From the NCBI GenBank assembly GCA_000310025.1, contig FN649752.1:3046157-3098915 (forward strand): a DNA stretch of 52,759 nt, in the 5' to 3' direction. This DNA comes from Ectocarpus siliculosus (taxonomy: Eukaryota; Sar; Phaeophyceae; Ectocarpales; Ectocarpaceae). The notes under the pieces are model-generated. The model searched no databases. It saw only the letters and a list, made by a program, of their open reading frames with translations, and was not told the origin of the DNA. This document shows, piece after piece, positions 1,711 to 51,795 of this stretch. The position numbers were made by a program, and so were the translations under genes. Numbering within the stretch: the stretch's first letter is position 1; every line of letters starts with the position of its first letter.

Positions 1711-1748
<38 letters not shown>

Positions 1749-2743
1749 TACATACATGGTGTTTTGTTGGAGGAACTGGTGGCAAGGACGTAGTGGCACG
1801 GTCTGTGACTCACGCGTGCAGTTGTTGCGGAGTACCGGTCATCTTGTGTTGTTGGGCGTGTGGGCTGACTACTGTACGTTTTGCCAGCGGTCATCTGGGT
1901 CCAATGGTTGGCAGCTCGCAACGCTGGGCTCGGTTAGATACCATGAGTCTTTCATTGTCGTGAGTGTGTAACACACACTGATAAACATGTGTGTTTTTTG
2001 TTATCCACGGACAAAAGTATGCTGCGTTTTACGGCATGGTCTAGTCTACATGAGCCGCGGTGCGTCAAGGCGAATAAATGACCAAGGGTCGGGCTGGGCG
2101 ATGCAGTCAGCGCCCGCGCTTATGAAGTCGATGCTCAGCACCATATCGAAACTTAAGAACTTGAGCAACATGTTTGTGAGCCCCGTTAATTAAGAACCCC
2201 TTACAATACATCCTGGTATACATAGCGGCCATTTGTGGGTAACTGCAACACCCCAGCCCCGGCCAAAGCTACGAATAGAGGTCCTTTAAGGTGTGGGCGC
2301 TATGACTGTAGCCCTCCGTGTAGACCTTCTCTGCAACGCCTCCCTAGACCTGCTAGACTACATACGAACATACATACACGAAGTGTGACGGATCTCTGTC
2401 GTTTTCGCTGTGCAAGTCCGTTCTCTCGCTGCTTGCGAAGGACATCTGAATCTGAATCTGACGACAACGCCAGTGTGGCGTCAGCGCCAACACAGAAACG
2501 CTAGTTTCGACAGACAGCTCCCCCTTCCCCCCACCCCCCGGGAAACCTGCGGTGCAGGACGTCGCCAGCAACGACCCACGCCACGTGCATCACATCTTTC
2601 GTGTGGTGAATGGAGATAAGGAGCAGAATGCATCCTCGCCGGAATCAGGAGCACCAGCAGCAGCAGCAGCAGCATCACGAGTAGCGGCACCACCAGACGC
2701 AGCAGCAGGGAATATTGGGCAGAGGACGAGGCTGCGGCCGTAG
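938..2743 (+). CDS. ZZ-type zinc finger protein (partial model)
   Basis: The two supported exons are 1492-1647 and 2558-2743. The first follows TTGGGCACAG and ends GTGTCAG/GTCAG. It reads in phase 0 through DGIALRCDRCHRDVVGPLF, then further CxxC and CC..C pairs, the cysteine pattern of a ZZ finger. The second follows GGTGCAG in phase 0 and supplies the histidine end of the finger (NDPRHVHHIFRVV), then a Ser/Ala-rich tail and a stop at 2741-2743. ZZ fingers bind zinc and usually recognise proteins, for example histone tails or degrons. A possible upstream exon lies at 938-1041, after a long pyrimidine tract, with an ATG at 950; its phase does not join directly to 1492, so at least one exon is missing from this model. 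The first intron carries a (CCG)n run near 1710-1746. Confidence 0.6.
1343..1499 (+). repeat. Duplicated 3' splice-site segment
   Basis: A segment of about 57 bp ending GGTTTTGGGCACAGCCGTTCAC at 1399 is repeated about 98 bp later, ending at 1499. The second copy provides the acceptor of the ZZ exon. Using the first acceptor would shift the frame, since 98 is not a multiple of 3. Confidence 0.65.
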
Positions 2744-4828
2744 CGGTAGCAGGGCACGGTATGGTTGACATGGATGTCAAGCGACCTTTGGTGTGAAAAT
2801 ACCTCTGCGAGTTGGGAAGCTTTGCATCACGTCGAACTCAATACACGTACTTTTAATCTCGGGGACGGGCCGCACGAAGGGAAGCGGAGCGGCACCGCAG
2901 CAATCACCGCAGCAGCAAAACAGCTCGTTTGATATGTCAGGTCAATCGCGCTGTGGGAGCTGGGTCTGCGTTCGGCGCGTCGACGACCGGGGCCACTCAT
3001 GCCGCCGCCCCTCGACAGCAAGGGCGGGCCGCTTATTGCTTAGGCCGGACCCCGGTTGTCGGCATTGTACATTGTGAGGGGGGGGGAGAGTGAGGTCTCG
3101 GGGGAATTATGGGCATTCCTCTTGTGGTTGTCTCTCATATGGTGTGGAGAAGATGATGAATTGGAGTGTAAATGTCTTGCTGCATGTGGCGTTTGAGATG
3201 TTGAGCGTTGTCACAGCGCGCGCGCTAACTGTTGGTGATGATGTGCTATTATAATACACAGCAGTTGGCAAGTGGGTGTGTTTTGCAGTTATTGCCTGGA
3301 GAGAGAGAAAAAAAAAAGGGATTTTATACCATTAACCCCTTGACTACGGGTGGGTCTCTCCTGTGACGAGCTGTTGGCACCGAATCCACGTTGTGTTGCT
3401 CCTTCGATTCGCCGCCGGGCTAGATGAAAACATTTGTGGGATGGATCCCTGGGCTTGATTCAGATTGATGTCAATGTTCCTCCGTGGTGTATCCTGTGTC
3501 GCGGGGTACCATGGGTGCCGTGTTGTTTTGTAGCCCTGAATGTAGCTGGACGTGGTAGTTTTAGCAGAGTACCTTGTGAGGAGTCTCGAAGCACAATAAA
3601 AACCGTTGTATCATCCAGTACGTCAGACCGCGTGTGCGAGAGCAAACACCGAACGCAGCCTGCGCAGCGCTCGGACGCCCCCAGCAGCTATTCTTAGCGC
3701 AAGAAACACTTTCGTATGATAGCGATACGACACGATGCCATATCATCGTTCCAAATTTTTGTCTGCGGCCCCCCTTCCTCCGAAACGGTGGCCGCAGTTA
3801 CATTCTTGGAATCTTGGAATGGAAACAAGCGGAACAAAGAGGTACGGCACCACAACGAAAACTTGGTCTCCACGTAAATGGAGTGCGGATCAGCACAAAG
3901 CACGAAATGCAAACCTTTGGTCGTCTCGCCTACGCGACTACCACCGCCACCGCCTCTCAACTTTCTCCCATGCCGAGCCCCATTTAGTTTGCGCCGGCTG
4001 GGAGGCGACACAGACAAGAAGACCAAGCCGCTCTTAAAATCAATGCGGAGCGTGCAGGTGTGGACGGGGGTGAGTTATCGGGGCTTCGGTGATGACCTGA
4101 GAAAGAGACGAGCAGGTTGTACCCCCGCACGCCCGGTCCAACACATTGGTTTCTTAGTTTTTGTAATCCCATTTATACTCTGGACGTTGGTTACACCGTT
4201 CGGTACAACTTCTGGACGCACCGGCCGGGATTACCCACACACACACACATGAGAACAACAATAAAAAAAAGGCCTGGACGACAGAATAATTCCGGAATTT
4301 TCTTGCGGGCTGCCAATGGACCGGCCGACGCCGAACTAACAGCGCAAGAATGACACGCATGCCAGAGGTACGGTCAAATGAGGATGATTGTGGAGATGCA
4401 AGTCAAACCGATTAATGCATACAAATACAACACGGTTAAAATGTCGAGAACACGGTTAAATGTCGAGAAAAAGAAAAAGTAGAAAGATATCACTCTCTAG
4501 TGTGGGACATCCACACACCATAGAAGCGCAGCACGTAGCTGCTGAATAGTTCCCCTCTCATTCTACCCTAAGCCTCTGCAACCCATAAGAATTCCAGCTA
4601 AACGTGTCACATACCAGCATTCGAATCCACCAACGTGGACGCAGGCAGCAGCGTGCGTTGTGAATACAAGACCGTCCGTCTGTGCGCAGCCAGCATACGG
4701 GGCAGCGACAACACCACGAACGTCAATTCCCCAAAACCCTGTACACTCAAAAAACATTTTTAAAACGTTTTTCGTCTCATACCCTTGGAGAGGGTACGAT
4801 ATGTACACCATTCGATCGCTACATGTAA
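2744..4828. other. Intergenic region between convergent genes
   Basis: This lies between the 3' ends of the ZZ gene (plus) and ZMYND10 (minus). No exon with domain similarity was found. It has a 17-20 bp direct duplication (AACACGGTTAAA..TGTCGAGAA) at about 4430-4470. I looked on the minus strand for the C-terminal MYND finger expected for ZMYND10 and did not find the paired CxxC pattern. Confidence 0.5.
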
Positions 4829-7800
4829 CTATGCGCGGACCGACGAGGACGGTGCTTCACCGCCCCTTCCGCCGGCGCCGCCGCTACCCCCTCCCCAATC
4901 CTTCTCGCGCGAGGCTCCGGCCTCCGCCTTTGCCGCCCGCACGGCCTCCACCGCCGCCGCCGCCTTTTCCGCAGAAGCAGCGACAGCGCCGCGTTCTTCG
5001 AGCTGACCCTCCCCCGCCCCGCCGCCCCAATCCTCAAGCTCCCCGGCTGAGAAGAGGGCAGCGGCGCTCTTGACGTCGGGATCATCGGCGTCATCGTAGG
5101 TGCAAAAGGCACCGCCGCCACCCCCGCTAGCCGGTCGTTTCGACGTGGCCCGGAGAGCTAGGGCGTCCCAATCGTGGCCCCGCGTGAGGCTCTGGCGTAC
5201 CTTGGGGATCTGCTCCATCAGGAGGCTGCCCGTCGTGCCCATGCTGGGCGGTTCTGGGACCTCCATGATCGTGAGCTCGTCCATGTACCTGGCGGTCCGC
5301 GAGTCACGTGGTTTTTGTGTGGTTTAGCGTTGGTTGTAGGCCGGAGGAGGGGAGTGGAGCCAGCCGTCCTTGCCTACTGACAGCATTGCATCGATAAATG
5401 CGGAGAGATGCGTTCCGTTTCGTGAAGAATTAGTCGCGCCGCATCAGCACCGAGACAAGGTTGCTAGGTACTCTCCCACCTGCTGTCCCGCCGGTGTCAA
5501 CAGCGACCGCAGCAGATTCGACAACCCGTCCCCTTTCTGAACCATTCGCAGTGAAGATATCAAATTTGCGGGAACCTCCACCTCTTGTTTTTCTTCTCTT
5601 ACCTCTGTACGGAAGCCAGCACCGGCAGCTGATCCAGCAGGATGTCGTTGAGGTACTTCCGAACCCTAAGAATGTTGTTCTTTCTCAAGGAGTTGAAGTG
5701 GTACCGCTTCCGGCACTCCTCCTCACACATGAGGTGGTACATGGCAAGCCAGACCTGGTGGGGGTGGGGCGGGGGGGGTGTACTCTTATGTTTTGCATGC
5801 CTTAGCGTTAGACGATTGACCACGCGCCGTGGGGTGGGGTGCGGTGCGGAAACAGGCATTTAGTTGCGAGGGGGGGTGCGCGGTTCTAAGGCGGGGGGGG
5901 TAGGGTGATCAAGTTGTCTCGCGTGTCTCATTTGAGTCATGTGATACTTTCCCGTGCTTTCGAGGTGGCCAAATTGGCAGGGGTGGAGGGGGATACTCAC
6001 GTGAACGTATGCCATAGTCACTATAACCTTGACCTCGCAACCCTACAATGCCGGGGCGGAGCGATATGCCGGGTTTTCGCCGGCCCAGGCTAGGTTTCAC
6101 AACGAGCAACCGGAAGCTGGTCACCACCCTTGCGTTTGACGGGGGTAGCAGGGCGGCTACCAACATAAGTCGTAAAATCACCGCGTGATTGATGTAGGGA
6201 AGGTGCCCAATGACAAATTGGGAGGGACGTTCGACCCTCGGTCCACGAGAAGCCAATAAATAGTTTCAATCGACTGAACAAAACAGTTCACGCTTGTGCA
6301 CGGTGCGCTACATAGTGCAACGGCCAAGTAAAAAAGGGAATTTGGTCTCTCCACCTTCTGCACAAGTACAACGTACCCGCGACTTGCACCGGTGTGTGCC
6401 AAGGTGGAGATGGAATGCGTCTTTGTTCGAGATCACAACTTTGACGACCGCTCATTGGCACACTGTATAGCAACACACCCCGCAGTACATACCCGCGCGA
6501 CTTTTACTGTGAGAAACGATATAAAAATTATCCCAAACGGACGACCGCTTATTGGCACACTGTATAGCAACACACCCCACAGTACATACCCGCGCGACTT
6601 TTACTGTGAGAAACGACATAAAAATTATCCCAAACGGACGACCGCTCATTGGCACACTGTATAGCAACACAGCCTACAGTGCATACCCGCGCGACATATA
6701 TTGTGAGAACATATATATCTCCCTTGAGGTGCTGCTGTGGGAAACGAACGGTCTTCTCTTGCCTGTCCCTCAGTCTTGGTGACCTGCAGCAGGTCGGCGG
6801 CCGCCACGGTCCTCCACTCGAAGTCCACGAACTTCTGCCAGGTGCCCTTGTATCAAAACAAAAACATAAACAAATGAAAAAAAAAAGATATTAAAAAAAA
6901 CACACACACCAAGTAAACAAAAAAAAACACAGCGAAACTAGAAATTAGCGTGTGGCCGAGGACCAAAGTATGCACATGCCATGGGCCCCACAAGCTAAAG
7001 TCGGCAGACGACGTGCGTCCCGCTCGCTGACTACCCCTCCCCAAGATCTCTCCGTCCCAGCATTGTAGGGATTCGAGATTAATGATCTAACGACTACGGC
7101 ACGCGTTTACACCCCCCCCCCGTCCCCCATAATCCCAACCTTAGCCCCTCCCGTTGGAAAACCTGGCTTTTCTCCGATAGATACTGCTGCCGATTGCATG
7201 CACATACAGTAGTGGTCCCGGTATAATGCCGGTACGATCCAGCCGATTTTCACCGGCATTACTGCGGGCAGCCGGCATTATTCAGAGCATGAAAGACAAC
7301 TTCAACGTTCCGTCTGTGACAGACGATTCCACCGGCATTATACAGGGAAACCGGCATTGTTCGACCGGCACAATACCGGAACCACCACTGTACCTCTTCT
7401 GCCCGCCTGGTCCAAGGCGGGTTCTCCACGAGGATAACCAGGCCGAGAAGCACGTCGTGGGTGTCCAGCACTCTCGTCATGACCCCGAGGGGAAGGCGGT
7501 GCAGGTGCTCGCACAGGAAGCGGAGGAGGGCCACGGCCGTCACGCACACCCGGAACTCCGTCTCCTCCTGGTAGCCCCGGACCTGTAGGCCCGGCCGCCC
7601 AGCCAGCCCCGTTCGACGTGACCAAAAAATGACACAACGGGGGCAGAGAGAGAGGCCGTTCACTGATTGGTTGATGCCAAGACTGGTGTCGAGAAGAAGC
7701 ACGAAACCATGCGCGCGCATGGATGGGTGGATGAATGGAGGCGTTGTGCTTCGACAAGGGGCAAAACGGAGGCACTGCGGCGGGACGGTAGTCTTGCAGA

Positions 7801-10800
7801 GAGAAACTAAAAAAGGAAAACTAGATGGTGATAAAAACAAAGAGCGTGTGATCTACGTGTGACCCCCTGCACATGTGTGTGCTCATACAGTTATGTAGAG
7901 TTGCTATGGAGCATGGGGAATCAACAAGTTTTGTCCTTCAACGACAAATGCGAAAATCCCGCATGGTAGTCTGCACGCATGGCATGAATCGTCGACACCG
8001 TGAGCGGGCCGTCCCTATTCTTTCAGCACGACGAAACGACGCGGCCGGCTGGACAATCGAAACCCAAACCGCAACTCAACAATCGAAAAGAACATACGTC
8101 CTGTGTTTGCCTTCCTCCAGGGTGACCCCGGCTGGTGCTTCAAACGTATCTCAAAAGGTTTACATGGACACCCAGAACAGATGAAACGAAAAAACAACAA
8201 CACACACGCACAGTGTGTTGTACGATGCTAACAACGAAACACACAAAATACGCTGAGACTGACGTATTTTCATTGGTCAGCCGCTTATCGCGGTCGATCC
8301 TATCCTAACAATAATAACAAAAACACACACACACATTCACACACAACACTCTGGGGCTGACGTATTTTCATTGGTCAGCCGCTTATCGCGGCCGATCCTA
8401 TCCCAACAATAAAAACAAAAAAAAACACATACACATTCACACACAACACTCTGAGGCTGACGTATTTTCATTTGTTAGCCGGTTAGCGCGGTCGATGCCA
8501 ATGATAAAAAAAAACACACACACATGATACACAACGCACTCACCTCTTCGGCCGGAGAGAGCTTAGCGAGCCTTTCCTCAATGTCCTTCGCCACCTCCCG
8601 GGCATTCCGCGGTTTGCTCGAGGCCCGCCTGAAAGGGCAGGGATCAGCGAAGCACGCGCGAAGTTTCGCCGCAGGAACGCACAGAGTATTCTTGGAGTGC
8701 GTTGTCGTAATTTAGCGCACCTACATACAATCGACCGCGTGCTGCTACAAATCTAAGTTGGACAAGCCACGTGCGTGGATGCCTAATGGCGAGGGAGTAT
8801 CCCGGCAAGCAGTAGTGTAACGGCCGACGCTACCGTTTCGAGCTCTAAAATAGCTTGCCAGGAAAGCCTACTACCACAGCTGGTAGTTGCCAGCCGGCCA
8901 TCAGACACACTCCGCATTTCGGTACAAATACGATTACGCCGCGCACAGGCAGAGTACAACAAAAATAATCACATGAACCCTTCCAAAAAACACACACACA
9001 CATGCACACACGCAAGACAAAAGCGCTCCCACGAACGGACAGAACACCCACCCGGAGATAAGCATGGTCATCTTGCGAGCGCAGTAGTCGGCGAGCTCCA
9101 TGAGGAGGTCTCCTCCCGCCTGCTCGCAGATGTGCCCGTGGAACAAGGCGACCTGCAGGAGGTTCGCGAGGGTGGCCTCGTGGTAGAGGGTGAAGTAGAG
9201 CCGCATCGTGCACTTGCCCGACCTTGCTCGCTCCGTCTCCAGCAGCCGGGGAAGAACGAACTGCCATGACGTCATCATAAAAAAAAAAAACGTGGGTGGG
9301 GCGTTTTGGAAGGAGGGAGGGTTTCTCAATCGTTTGCACGGCTGTGGGTCAGTTGGGCAGGAAGGGGGATAGATGTTGTTGCTGTGCTTCCCCGTGGCGG
9401 GACAGGGTGTGGGTATTCAGCTGTCAGTCCCAGTCCTGCTGTCTCGGAAGAACGACCAGCAATGGCCGGTATCGCGGCATGGAGCATGAACCTGCTTCAC
9501 GACGAGAAACGTCAACGTTTCCGTGTGCTTGTATTTCATGCCACCTGCGGTGCTGTCGTGGTAAAGCCTGTCTGGTCTTGGAGGCAACCTTCTTGTTCGC
9601 GCTTCGGACTTGAAACGAAACAAAACAACGCTTCATGGGTCTACAAGGACAGCCGTGTGCTCATGTACCTCAACGCCAGCTATTCACGTACGTTCGTCCA
9701 CAACTACGCAAAAAATCTATCGCGCCCGCTGCCCTCACGACGAGCATCGGACACGCAACACGCAAGAGCAGCAGTACAGAGCAGCCCGTCTGCAGAACCC
9801 TTGGTAAGAACGGTTTGCCGCTAGTGACAGGACTAGTAGCTAAATTTCATATCGCCAGCCAAGACGGAGCGTGAACCAGCAGCTAAACGCGAGGGTGTAC
9901 ACACCCCGCCAGTGCTGTTTGCTGTCACCAACCTCCTTCCACGCCTCGATGGCCAGCAGCTCGTGCACGACGACGCCGAGCTTGTCGAACGTCAGCAGGG
10001 CCTCCAGGACGTACTCGTCGGATCTCGCCATCGCACTCTGGTGAGCCTGAAGGTTGAGCTTGGCCAGTCGGCGGTTTTGCTCGAACCAGCTGCAAAGTCG
10101 CACGAGATTTCAGGTGGGGCGCGTGGTTGGGGGGGGGGGATCGGTGGCGTAGCACAGTGCAGTAGGGGGCCCGCCCGATGTAAGGTTCAAAGGGCAGGCA
10201 AACACAGGCCTTAAACCGGGACACCCGGCACTATTCAGAGTAGAAGACAGTTACTCAGTCTGTGCCAAGCGATTTCACCGGCCTTATAATGGGCAGTTGA
10301 CCTTGTTTATGGGGCCATATATCTGCCCCCCTACTGTGTTGGCAAGGGCAGAACAGGGGAGAGGGATGGCCAGGGCGCCATCCAACTTACCGTGAACAGG
10401 TTGAGTCTATGTAGAAATATTTGACTTGTCCATGATAGCCGTGGAAAGGTAGGCGAAATCGTCCCCGCACTTGAGTACATGCCGTCAGACGGCAGAGGCA
10501 CGAAGGGAGCAGTGCATGCTAAAAACAGTGCGCAAGTAAACCTAGAACGTTTGAACCTACCAATTGAACGCGTACGTACGTACCGGTGAGAAACCAGGAA
10601 GACGGGCTTCGCTGCATCGCACTGCTGCTGTCCTGGTTCACACAGGCTACATACCGCTGCAGGCTTTGTTCGGGTTGCTTCCGAGATTAGTACACCCCTC
10701 GCACTTGCACTGCTGTTGCGCTACACCTCACCCCAACTCGGGAGCTTGGACGACAGAGATCGCTTCAGATGTACCACGTGGTGTATGAGGTTCCATGGAT

Positions 10801-20385: not shown

Positions 20386-20540
20386 NNNNNNNNNNNNNNN
20401 NNNNNNNNNNNNNNNNNNNNNNNNNNNNNNNNNNNNNNNNNNNNNNNNNNNNNNNNNNNNNNNNNNNNNNNNNNNNNNNNNNNNNAGGAGGAGGAGGAGG
20501 AGGAGGAGGAGGAGGAGGGGGTGGGCGGGAGGGGGGAGGA
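20317..20540. repeat. GGA microsatellite interrupted by the gap
   Basis: (GGA)n followed by GGGGGTGGGCGGGAGGGGGG occurs on both sides of the N run, at about 20322-20385 and 20486-20545, with almost the same sequence. Confidence 0.9.
20386..20485. other. Assembly gap of 100 N
   Basis: Exactly 100 unknown bases, the conventional placeholder for a gap of unknown size. It sits inside a GGA repeat, which explains the failed assembly. Confidence 0.98.
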
Positions 20541-24302: not shown

Positions 24303-27300
24303 GCACTTGCGGAAGCTGCCAGACGCATGGAAGCCGAAACGCCGTGGTTCGAGAAGCTGGGCTTACGGTACCAGGACGTGGCGGATGGGGGCGGCGACTT
24401 GACTGTGGAGACCATCCTCGCTTTCAACGTCGCGAGCGGCCTGATCAATGCAGCCAACGAGACCGTCCTCGCCCCCGTGTTCGTCGTGCTCAAGGGACTG
24501 CTGGGTGCCGTCCAGGGCGCTGCGGCGGCTCGAGAAGAGATCGTTGAGCTCGCTCGGTACTGCGTGGCCATGTCAAGGTGCCTGCTTGATGCTGCCAAGG
24601 CGGACGTCATGCCCGAAACAATCAAGTCAACGCTTGAAGAGTTCAAGGGCGAGATGGAAGCGGTGGGCAGGTTTGTCCAAACTTACGGCACCCGATCGAG
24701 CGGCTGCTGCTGGCGCAGGATGGTGCTCAACGCTCACGATCGCGACACCGCTGCTGGCCACAAGCGGAAACTGAAGGATTTACTAGATGCGGTGCTTGCG
24801 GGTCTCGCCGCTCAGACCAACCAGGGGCTTAACCAGATCAAGGGTATGATTCTTGCCAGGGACCCCCCAAGTCTAGGTGCTCTGGCCGAGATTCCTCGCG
24901 AGGCACCTGTCCTGCCCACGACCTACGTGCAAAGGACGGCCATGTTGGAGGAAGTGGTAGATGACCTGACACACCCTCATCGTTCAGCTTCTGCTACGCA
25001 CTGTCTATTGGGGATGGGCGGCGGGGGCAAGACGCTGATCGCCTCGTCCGTGGTGCGAGATGACCGCGTGCGAGCCCGCTTCAAGCGCGGCATATTTTGG
25101 GTGCCCGTGGGGCGCGAGGGCAAGGACGTGGCGCTGCTCCTGGAGCACCTAGCAGTTGAGCTATCGAGGGTACCCACGGATACGCCACGCAGCTGCCCGA
25201 ACAGGTTTAGCGGTGCAGAAGAGGCTCTCCGACACCTGTCTTCCGTTTGCGCTGAGGACGGCCTGAGGTGTCTGGTTGTGCTGGACAACGTGTGGAATGT
25301 GGAGGTGGTGAACGCCTTCGCGAGCACGGGCTTTCATGTCCTCGTCACCACTCGTCAGCGGGCGGTGATATCTGCTGTGCACGCTGGGGTGTGGACGGAG
25401 GTCGGGGACATGTCGGAGGAGGATGCGTTGGAGGTCTTGAGCAAGGCGAGTCAAGCCGACGGACCACTGCCCGCAGAGGAAGCGCGCCAGGTGCGGGTTC
25501 AATCGTCGTTACTCGCATGTCTTGGTATTTTGGTGAAACTCGAAGGCATGACACAGTTAGTTCTAGCCTCCGAACCAGTGCGGGGTTGTGTCGATGTCGA
25601 TGGTCATCTCGAACAGAGTTCTGCGGGTGTGTGCTCTCCACCTGACGTCAAAGCAGTTAAAGTTGACGGGGTCCCCGCCTGCTGGACACCTGCGTCTGTC
25701 ACAAGGTTAGTTGAAATCCGATAGCTGGCGGCGTTAGGGTTACCAGGTCGTGTGTTGCGGCCGGTTTTTCAAATGTTGCTTTTGCTTTTCCCGCGATGTT
25801 CCTTTTCCAGGTGGCGCTCGACTGTGGAATGCTGCCGTTGGCCTTAGGCATGATCGGAGCTCTAGCGAAGGACCAACCTCTTGATCCGTTGTCGTGGCGA
25901 GCTGTGCACAAGAAGCTGCAAGAAAAGCGTGCAATGTTCCGTGATGTGGAGAACGGGAAGCTGTTCTCCACCATGGACACAAGCGTGTGCAACCTGCCCT
26001 CTAACCAGCGGGAACAGCTTCAGTTGATGGCGGTCATGGCTTTCTGGAGTCGCCGCAACCTCGGAAATGCTCGCAAACCTGTGGGACCAGGTTCGTTTGA
26101 TTCGATGCAAGCGAAGTCCTCGTTTCCGGGTGTTGAGTTTAACGAATGTGATTATCACCGCCGTTGCCTCGAAGGTCGCAGAGTCTTGAGCTTGTACTGC
26201 GCGCGCCTTTGGTTGGCTGTGCTTCTGTATTGCATAGAGTTGGTGTCCCATCGACACCTGTACTGGTTCCTCACGGCTGGTTCTCTCCGTTGTTGTCGAC
26301 ATGACATCTCCCTCTCGGGGACGTTGTTGGTTCCGGATCTCTAACCTGAACTGCATGCAGGACATCAGCGACGTTTCGACTGGTGCGAGCATTTTGGTGG
26401 ACCGATGCCTGCTCCAAGATATGCCCGACGGCTACCGTCTCCACGACCTGGTGCTCGATTACCTGCAGCTCATCGTGACCATGGGCGGTGGTCGTCTAGC
26501 GGGAGAAGCAAGCTCGCGGCAGGCTCGGTACCTGGCGAGGCTCGGGGTATTCAGGCAGTACAATGCTCGCGGTCATAACGTCAGCACCGGCGGGTTATAT
26601 TCTCTCGTTGCCCTTTGGAACTCGGCGAAGAACCTTGATGGGAGTGTAAACGCGGATGCTTGCTATTCGAAAAGCTTGGAGGGCGTGAAGGACATCGGAA
26701 TCACGAGAGAGGTGGCATGGCTGCTCTTGTTGCTGGTGAGCACGTTGTCACGGTATTGTTTTTGGCTGATCTGCCCTACGTGGACCTTTGTCTTCAGCAT
26801 CGCAGTACTTCGTTTGTATGCTTATGTAGAGACCCTCCGTTGAATGTGAACCCCGTGCATACAGGGAAGCTACTCTGGTGCGGAGGCCATACTCAGGAAG
26901 GTCTTGGAGGGAGCTGACGAGAGAGCGGACGAGCTCGCTGAGTTTGGATTCGCGCTGGGTACCCTAGCGACAGCGCTTCAACATCAGGTGCGCCTTGGCA
27001 AGTTTTTTCAAACTTCCCGCCAGATACGGGTGCTTTCTTGCGCGAACGGTGTACCAATTTCCGATCTTCGCTACGGCTCTTCCGTGCCTCTGTTTGGGGG
27101 GCGCAAGAGCAAGCTACCGCGATTGTCACGGGTTAGGGTTTAGGGTTACGGAAACGTGGTGTTGCGTTGTTCTGCTCATTTTGACACGCTGCACGCGCGT
27201 ACGTTTGTTGGACAGGGCAAGCTCGATGAAGCGAACCCTCTCCTGGTGCGAGCTATCGAGATCCAGAAGCGAGCTCTTGGCCCCGATCATCCGAGCGTCG

Positions 27301-30300
27301 CCATCAGCCTCGGCACCCGGGCAAACGTCTTGAAAGCACAGGTGCGTTAGTATGTCGGGGAGACCCCTGTCGTTGATGAACGCGACATGTATGTGAACAT
27401 TCGGTGAAGCTTTGAATCATCATTTCGATGGGCAGAATGACGGCGAAGAATGGTTTGATTTGTGTTGGTGGAAGCATCTGCCATGTTTCGGGTTGTATTG
27501 GCTGAGTGTTTCTGTCTCAGGCACCATCTGGCATGGGGGAGTTCTTGGCAAGGTGTGCGTCGTGTTCTGCATCACGACGAGAAACTCTGATCCTGCAACA
27601 CCCTGATTTCATCTCGAAGGGCAAGTACGACGAGGCGGACCGGCTGTACCTGAGGTGTATCGAGATTGAGGAGAAACGTCTGGGCCCCGACCACCCTGAG
27701 CTTGCTGCAAGCCTCAACAACAGGGCGGGACTCTTGAAAGCACAGGTACAGCAGCGGTTGTTTCTTGACGTGCGGTTTGTGGGACATGGCACGTACTCGA
27801 CCACTCATTGCATCATTGCCTGTATTGACCAAGGGTCTGGGACCGACACCTGGATGTCGGACTTGTGTCTGTGGTGGTGACATGGTGTGCCGACGTGAAG
27901 GTGGTATTGCGTGTTCCTGCTCATTTTGACATGCTGCACGCGCGTACGTTTGTTGGACAGGGCAAGTTCGATGAAGCAGATCCCCTCCTGGTGCGAGCTG
28001 TCGAGATCCAGGAGCGAGCTCTTGGCCCCGATCATCCGAGCGTCGCCAACAGCCTCGGCACCCGGGCGATTGTGTTGGAAGCGCAGGTGCGTTAGTATGT
28101 CTGACTCCTGTCGTTGATGAACGTGACACGTATGTGAACATTCGGTGAAGCTTTGCATCATCATTTCGATGGGTAGAATGACAGCGACGAGTGGTTTGAT
28201 TTGTGTTGGCGGAAGCATCTGCCATGTTTCGGGGTTGTATTGGCTGAGTGTTTCTGTCTCAGGCACCATCTGGCTTGGGGGAGTTCTTGGCAAGGTGGGT
28301 GTTGTGTTCTCGATCACCATGGAAAGCTCTGCTCCTGCAACACCCTGATTTCATCTCGCAGGGCAAGTACGACGAGGCGGACCGGCTGTACCTGAGGTGT
28401 ATCGAGATTCAGGAGAGAGGTCTGGGCCCCGACCACCCGGATCTTGCTGCAAGCCTCAACAACAGGGCGGGACTCTTGAAAGCACAGGTACAGCGGCAGT
28501 TGGTTCTTGACGTGCGGTTTGTGGGACATGGCACGTACTCGACCACTTATTGCATCACTACCTGTTTTGGTAAAGGGTGAGGGACCGACACCTCGGATGT
28601 CGGACTTGTGTCTGTGGTGGTGACATGGTGGGCCGACGTGAAGGTGGTATTGCGTGTTCCTGCTCATTTTGACATGCTGCACGCGCGTACGTTTGTTGGA
28701 CAGGGCAAGTTCGATGAAGCAGATCCCCTCCTGGTGCGAGCGATCGAGATCCAGGAGCGAGCTCTTGGCCCCGATCATCCGAGCGTCGCCATCAGCCTCG
28801 GCACCCGGGCGATTGTGTTGGAAGCGCAGGTGCGTTAGTATGTCTGACTCCTGTCGTTGATGAACGCGACGCGTATGTGGCAGAATGACAGCGAAGAATG
28901 GTTTGATTTGTGTTGGCGGAAGCATCTGCCATGTTTCGGGTTGTATTGGCTGAGTGTTTCTGTCTCAGGCACCATCTGGCATGGGGGAGTGCTTGGCAAG
29001 GTGGGTGTTGTGTTCTCGATCACCATCAAGAGAAGCTCTGCGCTTGCACCACCCTGATTTCATCTCGCAGGGCAAGTACGACGAGGCGGACCGGCTGTAC
29101 CTGAGGTGTATCGAGATTAAGGAGAAACGTCTGGGCCCTGACCACCCTGAGCTTGCTGCAAGTCTCAGCAACAGGGCGGGACTCTTGAAAGCACAGGTAC
29201 GGCGGCAGTTGGTTCTTGACGTGCGGTTTGTGGGACATGGCACGTACTCGACCACTCATTGCATCACTACCTGTTTTGGTAAAGGGTGAGGGACCGACAC
29301 CTCGGATGTCGGACTTGTGTCTGTGGTGGTGACATGGTGGGCCGACGTGAAGGTAGTACTGCGTGTTCCTGCTCATTTTGACATGCTGCACGCGCGTACG
29401 TTTGTTGGACAGGGCAAGCTCGATGAAGCGGATCCTCTCCTAGTGCGAGCTATCGAGATCCAGAAGCGAGCTCTTGGCCCCGATCATCCGAGCGTCGCCA
29501 ACAGCCTCGGCACCCGGGCGATTGTTTTGGAAGCGCAGGTGCGTTAGTATGTCTGACTCCTGTCGTTGATGAACGCGACACGTATGTGAACATTCGGTGA
29601 AGCTTTGCATCATCATTTCGATGGGCAGAATGACAGCGACGAGTGGTTTGATTTGTGTTGGCGGAAGCCTCTGCCATGTTTCGGGGTTGTATTGGCTGAG
29701 TGTTTCTGTCTCAGGCACCATCTGGCATGGGGGAGTTCTTGGCAAGGTGGGTGTTGTGTTCTCGATCACCATGGAAAGCTCTGCTCCTGCAACACCCTGG
29801 TTTCATCTCGCAGGGCAAGTACGACGAGGCGGACCGGCTGTACCTGAGGTGTGTCGAGATTGAGGAGAGAGGTCTGGGCCCCGACCACCCGGAGCTTGCT
29901 GCAAGCCTCAACAACAGGGCGGGACTCTTGCAAGCACAGGTACGGCGGCGGTTGTTTCTTGACACACGGTTTGTGGGACATGGCACGTACTCGACCATTC
30001 ATTTCATCATTACTTGTAGTGACAAAGGGTGAGGGACCGACACCTGGATGTCGGACTTGTGTCTGTGGTGGTGACATGGTGGGCCGACGGAAGGTGGTAC
30101 TGCGTTGTCCTGCTCATTTTGACATGCTGCACGCGCGTACGTTTGTTGGACAGGGCAAGTTCGATGAAGCGGATCCTCTCCTGGTGCGAGCTGTCGAGAT
30201 CAAGGAGCGCGCTCTTGGCCCCGATCATCCGAGCGTCGCCATCAGCGTCGGCACCAGGGCGAGTGTGTTGGAAGCACAGGTTCGTTAGTATGTCGGGGAG

Positions 30301-32368
30301 ACCCCTGTCGTTGATGAACGCGACACGTATGTGAACATTCTGTCAAGCTTCGCATCATCATTCCGATGGGTAGAATGACAGCGACGAGTGGTTTGATTTG
30401 TGTTGGTGGAAGCATCTGCCATGTTTCGGGTTGTATTGGCTGAGTGTTTCTGTCTCAAGCACCCATCTGGCTTGGGGGAGTTCTTGGCAAGGTGGGTGTC
30501 GTGTTCTCGATCACCATGGAAAGCTCTGCTCCTGCACCACCCTGATTTCATCTCGCAGGGCAAGTACGACGAGGCGGACCGGCTGTACCTGAGGTGTATC
30601 GAGATTCAGGAGAAACGTCTGGGCCCCGACCACCCGGATCTTGCTGCAAGCCTCAACAACAGGGCGGGACTCTTGAAAGCACAGGTACGGCGGCGGTTGG
30701 TTCTTGACACACGGTTTGTGGGACATGGCATGTACTCGACCACTCATTGCATCACTACCTGTATTGACCAAGGGTCTTGGAGAGGTACCTTGATGTCGGA
30801 CTTGTGTCTGTGGTGGTGACATGGTGGGCCGACGTGAAGGTGGTATTGCGTGTTCCTGCTCATTTTGACATGCTGCACGCGCGTACGTTTGTTGGACAGG
30901 GCAAGCTCGATGAAGCGGATCCCCTCCTGGTGCGAGCTGTCGAGATCCAGGAGCGAGCTCTTGGCCCCGATCATCCGAGCGTCGCCAACAGCCTCGGCAC
31001 CCGGGCGATTGTGTTGCAAGCACAGGTTCGTTGGTATGTCGGGGAGACCTCTGTCGTTGATGAACGCGACACGTATGTGAGCATTCGGTGAAGCTTCGCA
31101 TCATCATTCCGATGGGCAGAATGACAGCGACGAGTGGTTTGATTTGTGTTGGTGGAAGCCTCTGCCATGTTTCGGGTTGTATTGGCTGAGTGTTTCTGTC
31201 TCGGGCACCATCTGGCATGGGGGAGTTCTTGGCAAGGTGGGTGTTGTGTTCGCGATCACCACGAGAAGCTCTGCGCTTGCACCACCCTGATTTCATCTCG
31301 CAGGGCAAGTACGACGAGGCAGATCGACTGTACCTGAGGTGTATCGAGATTCAGGAGAGAGGTCTGGGCCCCGACCACCCGGATCTTGCTGCAAGCCTCA
31401 ACAGCAGGGCGGAACTCTTGCAAGCACAGGTAGGGCGGGACTATTGGGGCAACAGGGACGTCGGTAGCACAAGGGGTTGTCATCGAGAACCACACATTGA
31501 CCTGGAACGGCGAGACTTTCTTTTGCAACTCGAAGGCCTGTCGTTCACTCAAAAGGCCAAATTTCCGTGGAAATCTGAACGGGAGATTACGAGAACCCGC
31601 ACGGAGTGCTCATGTAAATCATTGCGAAGATTCCCGTCGTTTTGATCCCGCCCCAAGTGGGCGGTGTTGGCCATTGCAGGACATCGGCTCGGTCTCGAAA
31701 GGGGTGCATGACGAGAGAGGCGAATGAATGCACCTTCCCGAGACCAATCAGAACAAATTAGTTTCACCTCCACTCCGTGGGCGCCTCTCCTCCCACCCAT
31801 TTTATTTCTCCAGGGGAAGATCAACGAGGCGAGGTCGCTCTGGCAGAGAGCCCTCGACATTCTAAGGGGCTCTCTCGGAGAGGGACACCAGTACACCAAG
31901 ATGGTTTTGAAGTCACTGGAGGGGTTGGATGGAGAACAGGTTGGTGCCTTTTTGCGCAACCAGTTGCCTTTACCCCACCGGACGCTAAGTTTCTCCTCTT
32001 AGAACGAGTCAGGATGCGCGGTTTAATTCCGATTTTCACCGAGACGACCTTGTTTGTTGCGTGCGTTGGGGTGCTGATCTTGAGACGTTCGGAGCTTCTG
32101 TCTCGGCAACGCTGGTGTCAATCTCGCGTCATTGCGCATGTTTGGACTACACACAAGAAACGAAGTACTTACTGTAGAGGATACTGTCGTGATAGTTGCA
32201 CTGAAATTGGACAGCAGGATGAACCAGACCTCCGAAGGTGGGAAAATTCCCATACGTTGCCTAGCGCCTCTGCATGCGATATTTTGTTCTCAGGCGGGCG
32301 ATATCTATGTACTGTGTGCCGCCCATCAGCTGCAGCTGGACGTGGTAGAGTCGTGGAAGACCATGTAG
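24303..32368 (+). CDS. NB-ARC NTPase with TPR exon array (NLR-like receptor)
   Basis: Exons: 24303-25490, 25811-26090, 26361-26735, 26865-26987; then twelve 126-nt TPR exons starting at 27216, 27620, 27961, 28362, 28704, 29071, 29413, 29814, 30154, 30559, 30900 and 31304; then 31814-31939. The end is either a read-through stop at 32000-32002 or a small exon 32294-32368. All junctions are phase 0. The start is uncertain: acceptor at 24303 or ATG at 24327. Residues about 57-172 form four helices. The NB-ARC domain has P-loop GMGGGGKT (237-244), kinase 2 LVVLDNVW (324-331), a VLVTTR RNBS-B, GMLPLAL in exon 2 and an RLHDLVLDYL MHD-like box in exon 3. TPRs run from about 615 to 1201. By family, it should be a nucleotide-switched signalling receptor with a binding solenoid. 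One extra T at 26041-26043 breaks exon 2: removing it restores GVAATSEMLANLWDQ and a 279-nt phase-0 exon. Confidence 0.92.
27216..31429 (+). repeat. Six tandem A-B TPR exon pairs, about 743-bp unit
   Basis: A exons (GK[LF]DEA[DN]PLLVRA..) start at 27216, 27961, 28704, 29413, 30154 and 30900. B exons (GKYDEADRLYLRC..) start at 27620, 28362, 29071, 29814, 30559 and 31304. Spacing is 745, 743, 709, 741 and 746 for A, and 742, 709, 743, 745 and 745 for B. Each exon is exactly 126 nt and codes one 42-residue TPR with a central LGPDHP loop. A-to-B introns are about 275-279 bp (241 in unit 3), B-to-A introns 214-216 bp. Intron sequences are nearly identical among units, so whole units were duplicated recently or are kept alike by gene conversion. 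Confidence 0.97.
31430..31813 (+). other. Last array intron, unlike the others
   Basis: The intron after the sixth B exon begins GTAGGGCGGG and shares no visible similarity with the five other B-following introns. It marks the right edge of the duplicated unit. The next exon (GKINEARSLWQRALDILRG..) is a diverged capping TPR of the same 126 nt. Confidence 0.8.
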
Positions 32369-45800: not shown

Positions 45801-48800
45801 TACGATCATCCCCTTTGCGCGGAGTGAGGGTTCTCGACCCCGCACAACATGATCTACTCGACCACCGTTATAGTTACCGAAAGAAGAAAAAACAGAGGCA
45901 GAAAAAATAAGCGGTAACCTGTTGCCGAGCTCACGAAGTGATCGCCTTGTTTTACAACGTCGTTGCCAAGCGACGAAAACCCAACCCCGATGGCAAACAC
46001 CGAGGAGGGGGGGGTGTACTCATACTCATAGTCGTGCATGCCTTAGTCGTCAGACCATTGACCTCGCATCCCTACAAAGCCGGGAACGAGCACGCCGGGT
46101 TCTCACCGGACCAGGCTCTCACATCACCAAGCGCGAAGCGCCGTGAGGTATTCGGCCGCATGAAGGGTGCGCTGCATCCTGCTAAGGGTGTTCGGCATCG
46201 TGTGCCTTCTTCCTTGGGTACGGATGACAGCTGGGTATGACTTAATTCATTTTCTGGTGCTTTCACTTCCAGAGACAGTTGTATGCACTGTGTAACTGCC
46301 TCGAGGATGCTTGACCATTTTGGTCGAGGACGGGGGGGGGGAAGATTAGATCGAATTGAAAAGGAAGATGCAGGATAAGTTTAAGTTATTTGCTCCAGAG
46401 GACTACACCACTGACTTTCTTTCCACTTGGAGGTGTCTAATAGGTTGTCGTGTTCACTTTTTCTTCGTGCACCCTCGCCATTCATTTATGGCTTATTTTC
46501 CCTGGTTTGTGATGAATAAAAACATTCTGTATTTTTGAGGGGACGTAGGTCGTCACGCTAACTCTCTATCGTTAGTATACCCTACCAAACATTGACGTCT
46601 ACACCAACCAATTCAATAAAAATGCAACAATTGATAATAATGAAATACTATTGTCGTGTGGATTTTTTATGTCACTCAAGTCCTCAAGTGTTTCGACGTT
46701 GGGGGAGATCCCCTTGATTATTTTTCAAGCGACGTATCGCATGTATATCTTGGACTATTGTCGAAGGAGAGATATGAGTTTATTGTTGTTGTTGTTGTCT
46801 TCACATTCAAAACCGTTCCGTTCTCTCTGCCCAGTACCTTCTTCTGTCTGTATTATACTAGTCTAACACTTGACGGGGTCGATTCCCGTGGTCACAGGCT
46901 AACTTTCCGGGAAAAGGTGTATACGAAAATAAAACGGGCCCGAAGGGTCCGCAAGCCAATAAAAGTCAACGACCGATAGTCTAGGCCACTCCGCTCGTCT
47001 CTACACGCTATGCGAGGTAACCCTAGATGGGAAAAAGAAAGAAAAGAGAAAAAGAAAAGAAAAAGAAAAGAAAGGGAAAAATAAGAAGAAGAAGAAGAAG
47101 AAGAAGAGAGCAGATGGAGAAAAGAGAAAGTGAAGGAGAAAGACCCAGACAGAGAAAGACACACACCTTAGCGACAGACAACAAACAAACAAACAGAGCA
47201 ACGCAAGACAACCCCAAACAACACAACACAAAACGGGCCACCCGAGCCAGCACATGCACGTTATCGCTCGCGGGGGGTTGGTGCAATGGTGCGGTGCCGG
47301 GGGGGGGGGGGATGAGTCAAGCAAGGCGTTCAATTCGGCACGGTGTTTCGCGTCACTCGTCCGCCTCTTCGCGTTTCCTGTCTTTCCTCGCCGTCTCGTC
47401 CGCCTGCTGTACCCCTCCCGCCCCCGTGGTTGTTGCCGTGTTGTTGCCGGGCTTCTTGTTTCGTTTGAGCGCTTGTTGTGGGCTAGCCTCCTCTTCCTTC
47501 TTGTGCCAAGAGGCCATGAATCTCTTAGCTCCTTACAGTACCCCTGTATGCCACGGTACCCCCCGGTCCACCTTCGCTGCTTCCATCCAAGTTTTTTTCA
47601 GGACTCCGAAGAAGCATGGCTCGGCGTCCGTAGATCCGTGCTCTGCTCCGAACATCTTGAGGTCGTCCTTCAGGCACATCTGCCAGTTTTGCTCGGTATC
47701 TCCCCGCCTGGGCCCTCCCCCCTCACCAGCTCGCCAGGCATTTTCCGTTTCGGGAGTCGCCCGTCTGGTTGCCTTGCCAGCGCTCCCGCAAACAGCAGGC
47801 GGCGTTGCCGAAGCGTGGTTTCCACTCTCTGGCACCCTACCCTCTTCAGGGTCTGGGCGTAGGAAGGCTGCCGGTACGTGCCCTTCTTGCGTTGGTAACC
47901 GATAACTCGCAGGAGCAGTCGGCGGTGTATCGTCCGCAACGTCCGGTATTGGTCTTGACGTGGGGCCCATGTCATGCAGCCGTACGGCAGTGCCTCCATC
48001 GCCTCGGCCTGGAGCAGGCGAGTCTTGAGTCGGAACGGTGCTTTCGGCCTGTCGAAGAGCTCCTGGCGTTTTCTCCTGACGCATGCCCACGCTGCTCTGC
48101 TCCGGTAATTGATCTCCCGGGTGAGGTCGCCATGTTTGTTGACGAGGCCATCTAGGTACCGGAACTCGGTCGTCTGGGCGTACCTCTGCCCTGCTGCCTC
48201 AGATGATCAGCGGTGGGGGGGGGGGGGGGGGGGGTGGTTGTTGTGTGCTTCTCCTTTGCGCGCATCAGGAGCGTCTCCGTCCTCTTGTCCGATACCGTCA
48301 GCTCGAACTTCCCGACCACCTCCACGATGACGGTCATCATTCTCGCCAGTCCTTCGGCAGACCTCGATACGACGCCGGCGTCATCGGCATACAGCACCCC
48401 CCATACCGCCCTCCGCACTCGGTCAAGTGGTGTCCTCGCCCCCGCTCCCGTCTCCTCCTCCAGGTACACCAGGTTCTGCAGAATAACATCATCTCGCTGA
48501 ATCGAATGGCAACGACCTCGATGACCGCGGCGAAGAAGATGTTGAACAGCAGTGGGGACAGCACACACCCTTGTCGTAGGCCTTGTGTGACCCAGAACCA
48601 GGCCGATAGTTCTCCGTCGTCCATGCGCACCCGGGCCCGCATTACGTCGTGGAATTGGCGGATGACGGCGATCATCTCCTCAGGAATCCCGGCCATGGCT
48701 AGGACCTTCCACAGCAGCTCTCGGTCCACCGAATCATACGCCTTCTTCAGGTCGACGAAGCACATGTAGAGTGGTATTTTTCTTCTCCGCCCCAACTCCT

Positions 48801-51795
48801 GGAGTCGACGCACGACGAACAGATATCGTTGGTGGATCGCCCAGGTCGGAACCCGCATTGTTCCTCCGGGAGGATGTTGTTGGTTTCGCAGAAGGCGCTT
48901 AGGCGGTTGGTGATGATCTTGATGGGGGCCTTGCCTACGCGAGATAGGAGCGAGATCCCCCTGAAGTTGTTGCAGTTGGACCGGCCACCCTTCTTGTACA
49001 ACACCTTGATGGTTGCATCCTTCCACTCTTGGGGGATCTCTCCTCCGTTCCACACCTCAACGAGGATGGCACGGAGGTGCTCCAGGACGATGGGTTCCTC
49101 GTCGTCGTCGTCGATCTTCAGCAACTCGGCAGGGAGGGAGTCAGTCATTGCCGGGTGTCTTCCAGTTCTGCAGTCCTTCCGTTGCCCGTTCCACTTCCTC
49201 GAGGTCTGGCACCGCTCCCAACCTACAATATAATCAATGCGGACCCTGTGTGCGTGTGTTTCGAGCGGGAAAAAATATTGAAAGGAAAATAATAGAACCC
49301 CCTCGTCTTGCTTGCGAAGAGCGATCTATCCGTTCTCGCGGCTCTTACCCGGGTTTTGTTGGTGTTGGTCTTGGACTTACATTTCCGACGGGATCGACAG
49401 TTTATAAGTCACGATCGAAAAAACATTTAACAAAATATTGGCACGTGTTCGTGCGCGTCAGCAGCAACAGGGTGGTATTTCTCTTGCTTCCGAAATCCCG
49501 AAGGAACGAAGCAAACGGAACGGGGAACACCCTTCCTTGAGATAATCGCCGCATCACTACCGCTCTGGTTGATAAGCTTCTAGCGGTACTACTGTAACGC
49601 GGCGGACTGAGCTGCTCTGGAGACTTGAGACTTACCGCAGGTGCTCGCTGAGAAGCAAGACAACGTGCTCATTTTGGATGCTGCACCCACGTGGAAAACC
49701 TTGAGTGCTGTTACAAACGCAACTCGGTGTGACCCTCAAAGATCCCGACATCTATGCTTAACTAGGTTTTGCTTTAACCCGCTACCGAGGGCAGGCAGTT
49801 TTTTTCCGTTGGTATGTACTTTGGTCAAGAGGAGCTTAGGGTCCAGAAAGGCCGTTGGCGGGGCGGTGGCACAAGCGACCTGCCGCCGGCTCATGCCAGC
49901 GAAACTGGCATGTGGTTGAACAGAAGAGCCGTGTATCCATCCTCGTCTCCCGGCGAGTTTCAACGTTCTCGTAACAGATCTTCCCACACTTGGAACACTT
50001 CGAACGTGTCGGCATGGATCATGGATCCTACGTTTCCAATGTACATGTACCTGCCATCCATAGAAAGTTATACACCGTAAATACATAAGTATATGTATAC
50101 TAGTACATATCTTCGTTGTTCCAATTTTTCGGGTTTCCGAAGATCTCCATTTTGATTTCGTGGCTATGAAATCAGCTGCCGGAAAGACTTTATTCTTCGT
50201 ATTATTCCCAATTCCAAAGATGATTGAGAAAATAATAACCCAAAACAAACATCGAAGGCCGAAACTTGCCTATCCGTCACATAATACCAATCACTCATCG
50301 AATCTCCGAAGAAGCCAAGAAGAAAATGCCTGTTCCCCCGCAATGTACCAACTATAATCTCCGTAGATCCATGCCCCACATTCAACCATCATATGATACG
50401 AGTATGTCTGACATGCGAAACGGTTGCATCCATACATGAAAATCTGGAATATCATGCAGCGATCTTCAAATACATAATGCACAGTCTACATGTATGCATA
50501 CCTGTAGGATGTAGGACATTCAACAACTGACTGCTGTGGTGCACCTACATACGCCCATCCGTAGGCATTTATTCAGTGGCACATTGACGGCAGGCGGTTA
50601 CTTAGTCTGTCCTTGAGAAGGGTTCAAGTATCGTCCTAATGGACTAAATACTTGTTGACGCATACATGCATGGCCCTGCACTTACTTATTGCATAGACAG
50701 GTACACAACAATCCGATGGGTTGTACAGTATGCATCACACTTTGGAGGAGCTGGTACATCACTTTCGAAAAATGTCTCAATAAGTGACTGGCCATGCAAG
50801 CAATTGATACAGTAGGTGCATATCGATGCCTACTTAGAGGCAGACATAAGCGGCCACGTGGAGTAGAACCTTGCCTGATGCCGGTCGGCTATGGTCTCAG
50901 CATCTTATCCCTTGTTGCCCAGGTTGCGATTTATTTCTGTCTCGCACCCTACCAACAAATAACTTCGGCACCTTTACAGTAGATGAACGCGCCTTTCTCG
51001 AGAGGTTTTGGTAGTATAGGCGGTACGCTTTGCGTTCAGTTTTTTTCTCTCGTCACGCGTACACTGGCGTGTGTCTCTTGTTGTCAGGGCTGCTCGTCAG
51101 AGGCGCTCGTCGGGGCAGCGCGCAACGGCCATCTCGCCGTCGTCAAGCGTCTGCGAGAGCTCCGTCCGGAGCAGCTCGCGTGCCACGGCCTCAAGGCGCG
51201 TGCGGTCGCCGCGGCCGCCGGGCACGGGGCGGTGTCCCGATGGCTCGACGAGGACGATCCCGACCTGCTTCGCGCTCTGCAAGAGGCGGTGGTGTCGTCA
51301 GAGTCCAGCATCGGTAGTGGCGGCGGAATCAGCAGCAGCAGCAGCGAAAGCAGCAGCAGCGGAGGCAGCAATGGTGATGATGGTGATGATAGCAGCAGCA
51401 GTGTACAGCAGGCCGACGGTTTTGAAGAGGAAGAAGACGGAAGTTTATCGGAGGAAAAGAGGACGAGCACAATAGCGCGACCGGACGAGTCGGAGTTCAG
51501 CAGCGGCGGCGATGATGATAGCAGCAGCACCAGCAGCAATTATCAGCAGGCGGAGTGCGACGACGAAGACGACGATGACGACAGCAGTTTCTTCAGCGCT
51601 TGCAGCACGAGCGAGGATCCCGATGACGTCGGCAGCTGCTGTAGCAGAGACTCCAAAGACGGTGTTGTTACGTGTGGGGTTGCCAGCGGCGACGACGGTG
51701 ACGAGGGAGGTTGGGCCAACAACTGCTTGGCTCCGGCGGACTCCGCGCATAGCAGCCGCCATCTTGGCCCGCAGGGTTTCGACGGGCGCGGATGA
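39801..51795 (+). CDS. Ankyrin-repeat protein with acidic Ser-rich tail
   Basis: Exons 39801-40300, 41213-41372, 41579-41755, 42233-42316, 43236-43400, 43729-43926 and 51088-51795 join in frame to 663 residues; only the first junction is phase 2. The start is the ATG at 39801. Short ankyrin repeats carry the AA-x2-GHL-x-VV-x-WL signature: DWAAAQGHLKVVRWLLDN (across exons 1-2), DGAAGGGHLDVVRWLAGN, EMAASNGHLDVIQWLDD (across exons 3-4), GLAASRGHLDVCEWL, DRAAEAGHLGTVEYLLHH, and GAARNGHLAVVKRL in the last exon. Repeats continuing smoothly across junctions support the model. Exon 1 also has a poly-Ser tract from a GCA/AGC run. The tail from about residue 500 is rich in Ser, Asp, Glu and Gly and is probably disordered. 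Ankyrin solenoids bind proteins; the partner is unknown. The last intron is about 7.2 kb and full of mobile elements. Confidence 0.85.
42852..42923 (+). repeat. tRNA-like sequence in an ankyrin-gene intron
   Basis: It has an A-box-like TGGTCTAGTTGG and a B-box-like GGGTTCGAATC at tRNA spacing, but the acceptor and T stems are mismatched. It is a SINE head or tRNA relic in the intron between 42316 and 43236. Confidence 0.4.
44405..44906. mobile_element. hAT-type MITE, 502 bp
   Basis: Inverted ends are CAGGGATGCGGGTTCGGCGG on the left and, in reverse complement, CAGGGATGCGGGTTACGGCG on the right. An exact 8-bp target duplication CTTTTTTT flanks the element (44397-44404 and 44907-44914). CAGGG-type ends with an 8-bp duplication are typical of hAT transposons. 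No transposase is present. Inside is a three-fold short tandem repeat (CGGTGTTTAACACC-CAT) at 44731-44785. It lies in the large ankyrin-gene intron. Confidence 0.85.
45467..46007 (+). repeat. Repeat family R1, copy 3 (full length)
   Basis: A full-length copy from the G-run before TGTACTCATACTCATAGTCG to GATGGCAAACACCGAGGAGGGG. It is very close in sequence to copy 1. It lies in the ankyrin-gene intron. Confidence 0.85.
46008..46320 (+). repeat. Repeat family R1, copy 4 (3' truncated)
   Basis: It begins directly at the G-run ending copy 3, so the two are head to tail. Similarity stops abruptly at GACCATTTT (46320), where the other copies continue with AACACAACG. Confidence 0.85.
47530..49240 (-). 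pseudogene. Degenerate LINE reverse transcriptase
   Basis: Minus-strand fragments in coding order carry: EEVERATEGLQNWKTPG (about 49220-49150), WKDATIKVLYKKGG with NFRGISLLS and EEQCGFRPGRSTND (49148-48810), FVDLKKAYDSVDRELLWK and TQGLRQGCVLSPLLFNIFF (48770-48510), the catalytic GVLYADDAGV (about 48400-48370), and a C-terminal FRLKTRL..EAMEALPYGCMTWAP with RRLLFAGALARQ (48090-47670). These are non-LTR retrotransposon RT blocks. They lie in at least three frames, with a G-run (48213-48233) and stops between, so the copy is dead. It is antisense within the ankyrin-gene intron. Long plus-strand frames over it are shadows. Confidence 0.88.
49241..51087. other. Distal part of the large ankyrin-gene intron
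   Basis: No exon or known element is recognised. It is moderately AT-rich from 50000 to 50500. It ends in the acceptor TCTCTTGTTGTCAG before the last ankyrin exon. Confidence 0.45.

Follow-up and report, generated by a model that had tools for sequence, protein, structure and literature searches.

Do brown algae rebuild their receptors by changing the DNA or by splicing alone? In the passages of PMC11378527 that deal with it, the matter is debated, and it arises at a gene of Ectocarpus siliculosus in which a nucleotide-binding NB-ARC domain is followed by a long run of exons coding for tetratricopeptide repeats (TPRs). The gene lies in a window of 52,759 nt, by which we mean the whole stretch of DNA analyzed (C27:3046157-3098915 within a 189.5-Mb assembly of 492 contigs); positions are counted from its first letter. 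Our reading, which as a whole we consider quite probable, is that the gene belongs to the NB-ARC-TPR family, that its TPR array arose by tandem duplication of an exon pair, followed by exchange between the resulting units, and that its reading frame is broken upstream of the array in the copy as assembled.

An array of repeat-length exons

The array spans 27216-31429. All 12 of its exons are exactly 126 nt long, preceded by AG, followed by GT and in phase 0, with all 504 codons open, and two exon types, A and B, alternate to form six two-exon units.

Left repeat edge, 27153..27215, plus strand, final 63 nt of the intron that precedes A1, matching the ends of the B-A introns in local alignment
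A1, 27216..27341, plus strand, TPR exon of 126 nt
B1, 27620..27745, plus strand, TPR exon of 126 nt, acceptor AAG (CAG in the other exons)
A2, 27961..28086, plus strand, TPR exon of 126 nt
B2, 28362..28487, plus strand, TPR exon of 126 nt
A3, 28704..28829, plus strand, TPR exon of 126 nt
B3, 29071..29196, plus strand, TPR exon of 126 nt
A4, 29413..29538, plus strand, TPR exon of 126 nt
B4, 29814..29939, plus strand, TPR exon of 126 nt
A5, 30154..30279, plus strand, TPR exon of 126 nt
B5, 30559..30684, plus strand, TPR exon of 126 nt
A6, 30900..31025, plus strand, TPR exon of 126 nt
B6, 31304..31429, plus strand, TPR exon of 126 nt, repeat homology ending about 10 nt past the exon

An earlier note on this DNA had described twelve 126-nt, phase-0 exons of two alternating types in six tandem units of about 743 bp. 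Every exon was recovered with GT-AG boundaries, and the units were found with A-to-A spacings of 745, 743, 709, 741, and 746 bp, the low value of 709 belonging to unit 3, whose A-B intron has a 36-column gap. A-B introns measure 241-279 nt and B-A introns 214-216 nt. One further in-phase exon flanks the array on each side (26865-26987 and 31814-31939). At the right edge, local alignment of the intron after B6 with a B-A intron gave a score of 17, compared to a mean of 17 and a maximum of 22 for shuffled sequence. The 11-mer AGGGCGGGACT, which codes for RAG in the B exons, recurs at 31432-31442, where the intron that follows B6 begins, and is possibly a trace of the right junction.

The length of these exons is a rule of the gene family in this genome, neither a chance result nor an unusual one. 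We scanned the window and 20 paralogous regions (21 sequences) for an AG, an open TPR-like stretch of 120-132 nt, and a GT, counting exons of 126 nt with a score of at least 75 and using the reversed sequences as a control. Outside the window, 19 of the 20 paralogous regions carried such exons, 129 in all and each exactly 126 nt long, region L034 having none, and the same 21 sequences reversed yielded 0. A genome-wide protein search with B2 gave at least 150 scored matches among 538 candidates, 12 of them the window's own exons. Region L037 carries eleven nearly identical single-exon TPR units at a spacing of about 452 nt (1241-5905 of that region), a further array that looks private to its locus. 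Zambounis 2012 is said to have reported that each repeat in such genes is coded by one exon.

A1 and B1 match Pfam TPR_10 and TPR_12, and the other ten exons are copies with 88-98% identical DNA. The exon start corresponds to position 16 of 42 in TPR_10 and 17 of 77 in TPR_12, at the turn that connects helices A and B of a TPR. In this register, each exon holds the second helix (B) of one TPR together with the first helix (A) of the following one, and because the cut falls in the inter-helix turn, a moved exon would alter parts of two adjacent TPRs. The proposal that each exon codes one whole 42-residue TPR therefore holds for its length, one repeat per exon, but not for its boundaries, which by their Pfam positions do not enclose a whole canonical TPR. 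The closest solved structures for the TPR part are those of the kinesin light chain TPR domain (7ai4, 7.9e-66, and 3nf1), with which the joined A2-B2-A3 stretch aligns without gaps.

Growth of the array

Between units, mean identity is 92.7% for A exons, 94.8% for B exons, 93.5% for A-B introns, and 92.7% for B-A introns. Exons and introns are thus about equally similar and were copied together, whereas A and B exons share a mean of 65%. A midpoint-rooted FastTree phylogeny of 141 exons (12 from the window and the 129 others) groups all six A exons in a clade of their own (support 0.996) and likewise all six B exons (0.992), and these two clades join nine exons of a locus on contig C15 (L040) in a clade of 21 (0.883). 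The best whole-exon DNA identity between window exons and the 129 others is 67-75%, elsewhere in the genome the array DNA is matched only over stretches of 57-139 nt with 69-83% identity, and outside the locus the best of the listed protein matches to B2 is at 81%. The private A and B clades, with introns as similar as exons, indicate growth by tandem copying of the exon pair. By these comparisons, the array is private to its locus and grew from one A-B pair plus introns. Such a piece (A exon, intron, B exon, intron) was probably duplicated repeatedly through unequal crossing over, and short stretches probably then passed between units.

Exchange between units, the kind of recombination signal whose absence the earlier note would have counted against its idea, is likely over short distances, though not certain. 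The closest pair of units differs by segment: 2 and 3 for A exons, 2 and 4 for A-B introns, 2 and 5 for B exons, and 2 and 3 for B-A introns. The PHI recombination test between units is significant at 50 bp (p 0.0005) and at 100 bp (p 0.022). A higher-order pattern of units 1, 3, and 5 against 2, 4, and 6 fits exactly at 3 of 44 informative sites.

The reading frame of the exons was probably guarded while the units diverged, although the signal is weak. We counted 18 synonymous and 21 replacement changes between units, an excess of synonymous changes under both equal rates (p 0.004) and intron-derived rates (p 0.033), and all 7 gap runs fall in introns, none in exons. Ratios of dN to dS are below 1 (0.050/0.163 for A and 0.047/0.083 for B), so positive selection is not shown. 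Residues vary between units at 14 positions, and these are the positions that vary most among the 129 other exons (one-sided p 0.004).

Several results weigh against this account of the array. At 200 bp the PHI test gives no significant signal (p 0.37). The exons are under weak constraint, replacement changes reaching 0.71 of the number expected under neutrality (P 0.061) and 0 stops being seen where 1.7 were expected (P 0.18). Finally, the B-A intron is, over about 150 nt at its 5' end, unlike both the intron before A1 and the intron after B6, so the edges of the array are not explained by a single simple duplication.

Exon 2 and the competing explanations

The rest of the gene bears on whether such an array serves a working receptor. 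Its exons outside the array are as follows, with a slash marking the splice point.

E1, 24303..25490, plus strand, 396 codons, open, NB-ARC domain, 3' end CAG/GTGCGG
E2, 25811..26090, plus strand, 280 nt, matches paralogs, carries CGMLPLALG (GLPL-like)
E3, 26361..26735, plus strand, 375 nt, carries YRLHDLVLDYL (MHD-like), tblastn matches in 10 paralogous regions
E4, 26865..26987, plus strand, 123 nt, phase 0, TPR-sized, degenerate, placed by splice sites and length
E17, 31814..31939, plus strand, 126 nt, in phase, weak TPR, two paralog matches
Possible last exon (tentative), 32294..32368, plus strand, with a TAG stop, a preceding AG, open and in phase

The gene is a member of the NB-ARC-TPR (NLR-like) family, with the NB-ARC exon ahead of the TPR exons. 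E1 matches NB-ARC PF00931 at 60.4 bits (cut-off 23.5; 2e-16), contains GMGGGGKT, the P-loop, and LVVLDNVW, and has Apaf-1 (1z6t, 6.6e-12) as its nearest solved structure. Along the gene we recognize a P-loop, a kinase-2, a GLPL-like motif, and the HD of MHD. No exon was found 5' of E1. E3 has no Pfam match, and its 3' end was set from sequence at CTG/GTGAGC; the frame read-through described below used a boundary two bases further on. E4 has no match in Pfam or in the paralogous regions, E17 matches TPR_12 at 7.9e-4, under the Pfam cut-off, and the possible last exon has no match in the paralogous regions. By analogy with NLRs, the TPR superhelix of a working member might bind a ligand and the NB-ARC switch might signal, which would give such genes an immune role.

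In this copy, the frame shifts by one base at about 26037-26045 in exon 2, which lies between two phase-0 neighbors. The first part of the exon reads to LQLMAVMA in one frame and the last part, SGVAATSEMLANLWDQ, in the next, the change falling between the GLPL-like and MHD-like motifs. The repeats are consequently out of frame with the NB-ARC domain as assembled. The earlier description of an NLR-like receptor gene thus stands for its domains, NB-ARC and then TPR by Pfam, while the frame change argues against a working receptor from the copy as assembled. Possible origins of the break are a recently broken gene, use of another splice site, or an assembly error.

That the gene is a pseudogene, with a real frame change bypassed by no splice variant and an array that is the relic of a once working receptor, has in our estimate a substantial chance, somewhat short of even. 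Exon 2 has 280 nt, and when the window's frame is read on, a stop follows at residue 165 from the exon 2 start, within exon 3 and upstream of the first TPR exon. At the corresponding point, 10 of 10 paralogs are in a single frame, including L044, which is frame-changed earlier in the exon. Nor are broken members rare, as 5 of the 37 NB matches in the genome contain an internal stop. (L044 is itself an NB-ARC-TPR paralog; besides its own frame change in exon 2, it has a stop inside NB.) Yet the fully open array and its excess of synonymous changes make any break recent relative to the array, the NB-ARC motifs are otherwise intact, and a one-base assembly error is possible, the assembly holding no second copy of the locus.

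Splicing could matter in two ways. The first, possible if on the doubtful side, is that skipping of TPR exons yields many in-frame isoforms, the repertoire then coming from splicing and not from change in the DNA. Such isoforms have been proposed for genes of this family. All 12 array exons are symmetric, and alternative splicing is argued to be the simpler explanation in the part of PMC11378527 that weighs the two, with citation of Teng 2023. However, with units this similar, skipping would alter the length of the repeat domain more than its surface, and isoform choice and DNA change are not mutually exclusive. An exon of 126 nt in phase 0 can be gained, lost, or skipped while the frame is kept, so that by either route the TPR superhelix would be free to vary in length and surface.

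The second, rather improbable, is a working gene that avoids the break through a different in-frame donor, within exon 2 or beyond it, or through another acceptor in exon 3, and so loses the residues around the break. Within 25970-26160 there are four GT sites at which exon 2 would be open and of a length divisible by three (ends at 25984, 26032, 26080, and 26131), the nearest of them ten bases before the usual end at CCT/GTGGGA, and one alternative acceptor in exon 3, at 26419, likewise gives an open frame. Against this, none of the candidate donors looks strong or is of known use, the residues that would be lost are conserved in paralogs, and about one-third of GT sites would fit the length by chance.

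The remaining explanations turn on what other loci of the family do. Between regions, 179 exon pairs share at least 80% identity, and up to 100%, although 22 of them involve neighboring pieces of one locus (L029/L030 and L042/L043). Fourteen exons in five regions can be expressed as recombinants of two others, with 13 of 14 breaks in nt 89-126; these amount to 7 distinct flank combinations, and the approach admits breaks only between two matching flanks. Of 73 intron pairs from different regions that have an end in common, 61 share one end only (46 the 5' end and 15 the 3' end). Neither the exon pairs nor the intron pairs in these counts are independent. Judged from such alignments, junctions in other loci lie within introns and near exon ends, in the last third. 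The idea that they lie in exons rather than introns was refuted by the 61 of 73 shared introns that are broken too. A changepoint run on ungapped flanks was not relied on, its late breaks in L037 probably being effects of indels. The earlier suggestion that a receptor surface is rebuilt by adding, deleting, or swapping whole exons keeps its premise, in that symmetric exons allow gain, loss, and skipping in frame, but elsewhere junctions also fall within exons, and the pieces are not always whole.

One could go further and see in the array a live site of repeat expansion, at which cassettes of two exons are added, removed, and rewritten from one individual or cell line to another. Cut points across the family would then favor two places, the introns and the stretch coding for LNNRA close to the end of the exon, the moving piece would be an exon body with the upstream intron end, and the frame break would be a recent by-product of fast birth and death; we regard this as a long shot.

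That the array was assembled from exons shuffled in from other loci is very improbable, for although other regions share near-identical exons, 0 of the 179 pairs include a window exon and the best matches elsewhere, given above, are distant or short. Other loci as its source are ruled out by the lack of any near-identical exon among those pairs or in genome-wide DNA matches. The window array thus carries no sign of recent exon exchange with other loci, though other loci share exons among themselves; such exchange characterizes the family collectively, and an individual member need not show it. What the earlier note had called a fresh, unusually regular example of shuffling is regular indeed, but looks like a young tandem duplication.

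Tandem duplication of an exon pair thus remains our preferred account, and it makes the locus a clean test object. Its six units are mutually distinct and could be counted and ordered on single long reads, and since the array is private, reads from other loci should not cross-map. The frame break carries a caution as well, namely that regular exon arrays are not to be counted as working receptors before the upstream exons have been checked.

Elsewhere in the window, a reverse transcriptase match on the minus strand at 48340-49056 (RVT_1, 2.6e-13) is probably a retrotransposon remnant. Exactly 100 N at 20386-20485, flanked by GAG/AGG triplet repeats, mark an assembly gap, and tandem arrays lie at 6443-6709 (2.8 copies of a 97-bp unit) and 8240-8496 (2.6 copies of a 98-bp unit). 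RNA family searches across the window gave 0 matches at the gathering threshold.

Comparison with known systems

The NB-ARC switch domain is shared with Apaf-1 (the structure nearest to E1) and with plant NRC4 (9cc8, 1e-4). The sensors of those proteins are WD40 or LRR domains where this gene has TPRs. Kinesin light chain has the same 42-residue type of TPR but is a cargo adaptor without NB-ARC.

Fungal NLRs, whose repeats are of the WD, ANK, or TPR kind, come closer, combining NB-ARC or NACHT with kinesin-light-chain-like TPRs in near-identical repeats (PMC4986451). The sections of that paper concerned with repeats report concerted evolution, polymorphism of repeat number between strains, and a preference for even numbers of TPRs; they do not describe one exon per repeat, whereas at this locus exons and introns repeat together. 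Brown-algal LRR-ROCO genes share single-repeat exons of equal length and phase, shuffling, and splicing, as far as the relevant part of PMC11378527 sets them out, but their exons are 72-bp, phase-2 LRR exons joined to a ROC-COR GTPase, compared to 126-nt, phase-0 TPR exons joined to NB-ARC here.

The nearest relatives are the other brown-algal NB-ARC-TPR genes, for which exon shuffling and alternative splicing are reported in passages of PMC11378527, PMC12879055, and PMC7317505. These passages credit the shuffling proposal to Zambounis 2012 (doi 10.1093/molbev/msr296) and Teng 2023 (doi 10.1111/tpj.16131), and to that extent the earlier note was correct that such a proposal exists in the literature. 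This kind of gene design is already described in brown algae, and the locus is a regular further example, which for a specialist makes it a modest surprise. Like its relatives, the gene has NB-ARC followed by C-terminal TPRs, with one repeat-length exon per TPR of constant length and phase (12/12 here). In contrast to them, a two-exon unit is repeated six times together with its introns, in an array private to the locus and downstream of a broken frame.

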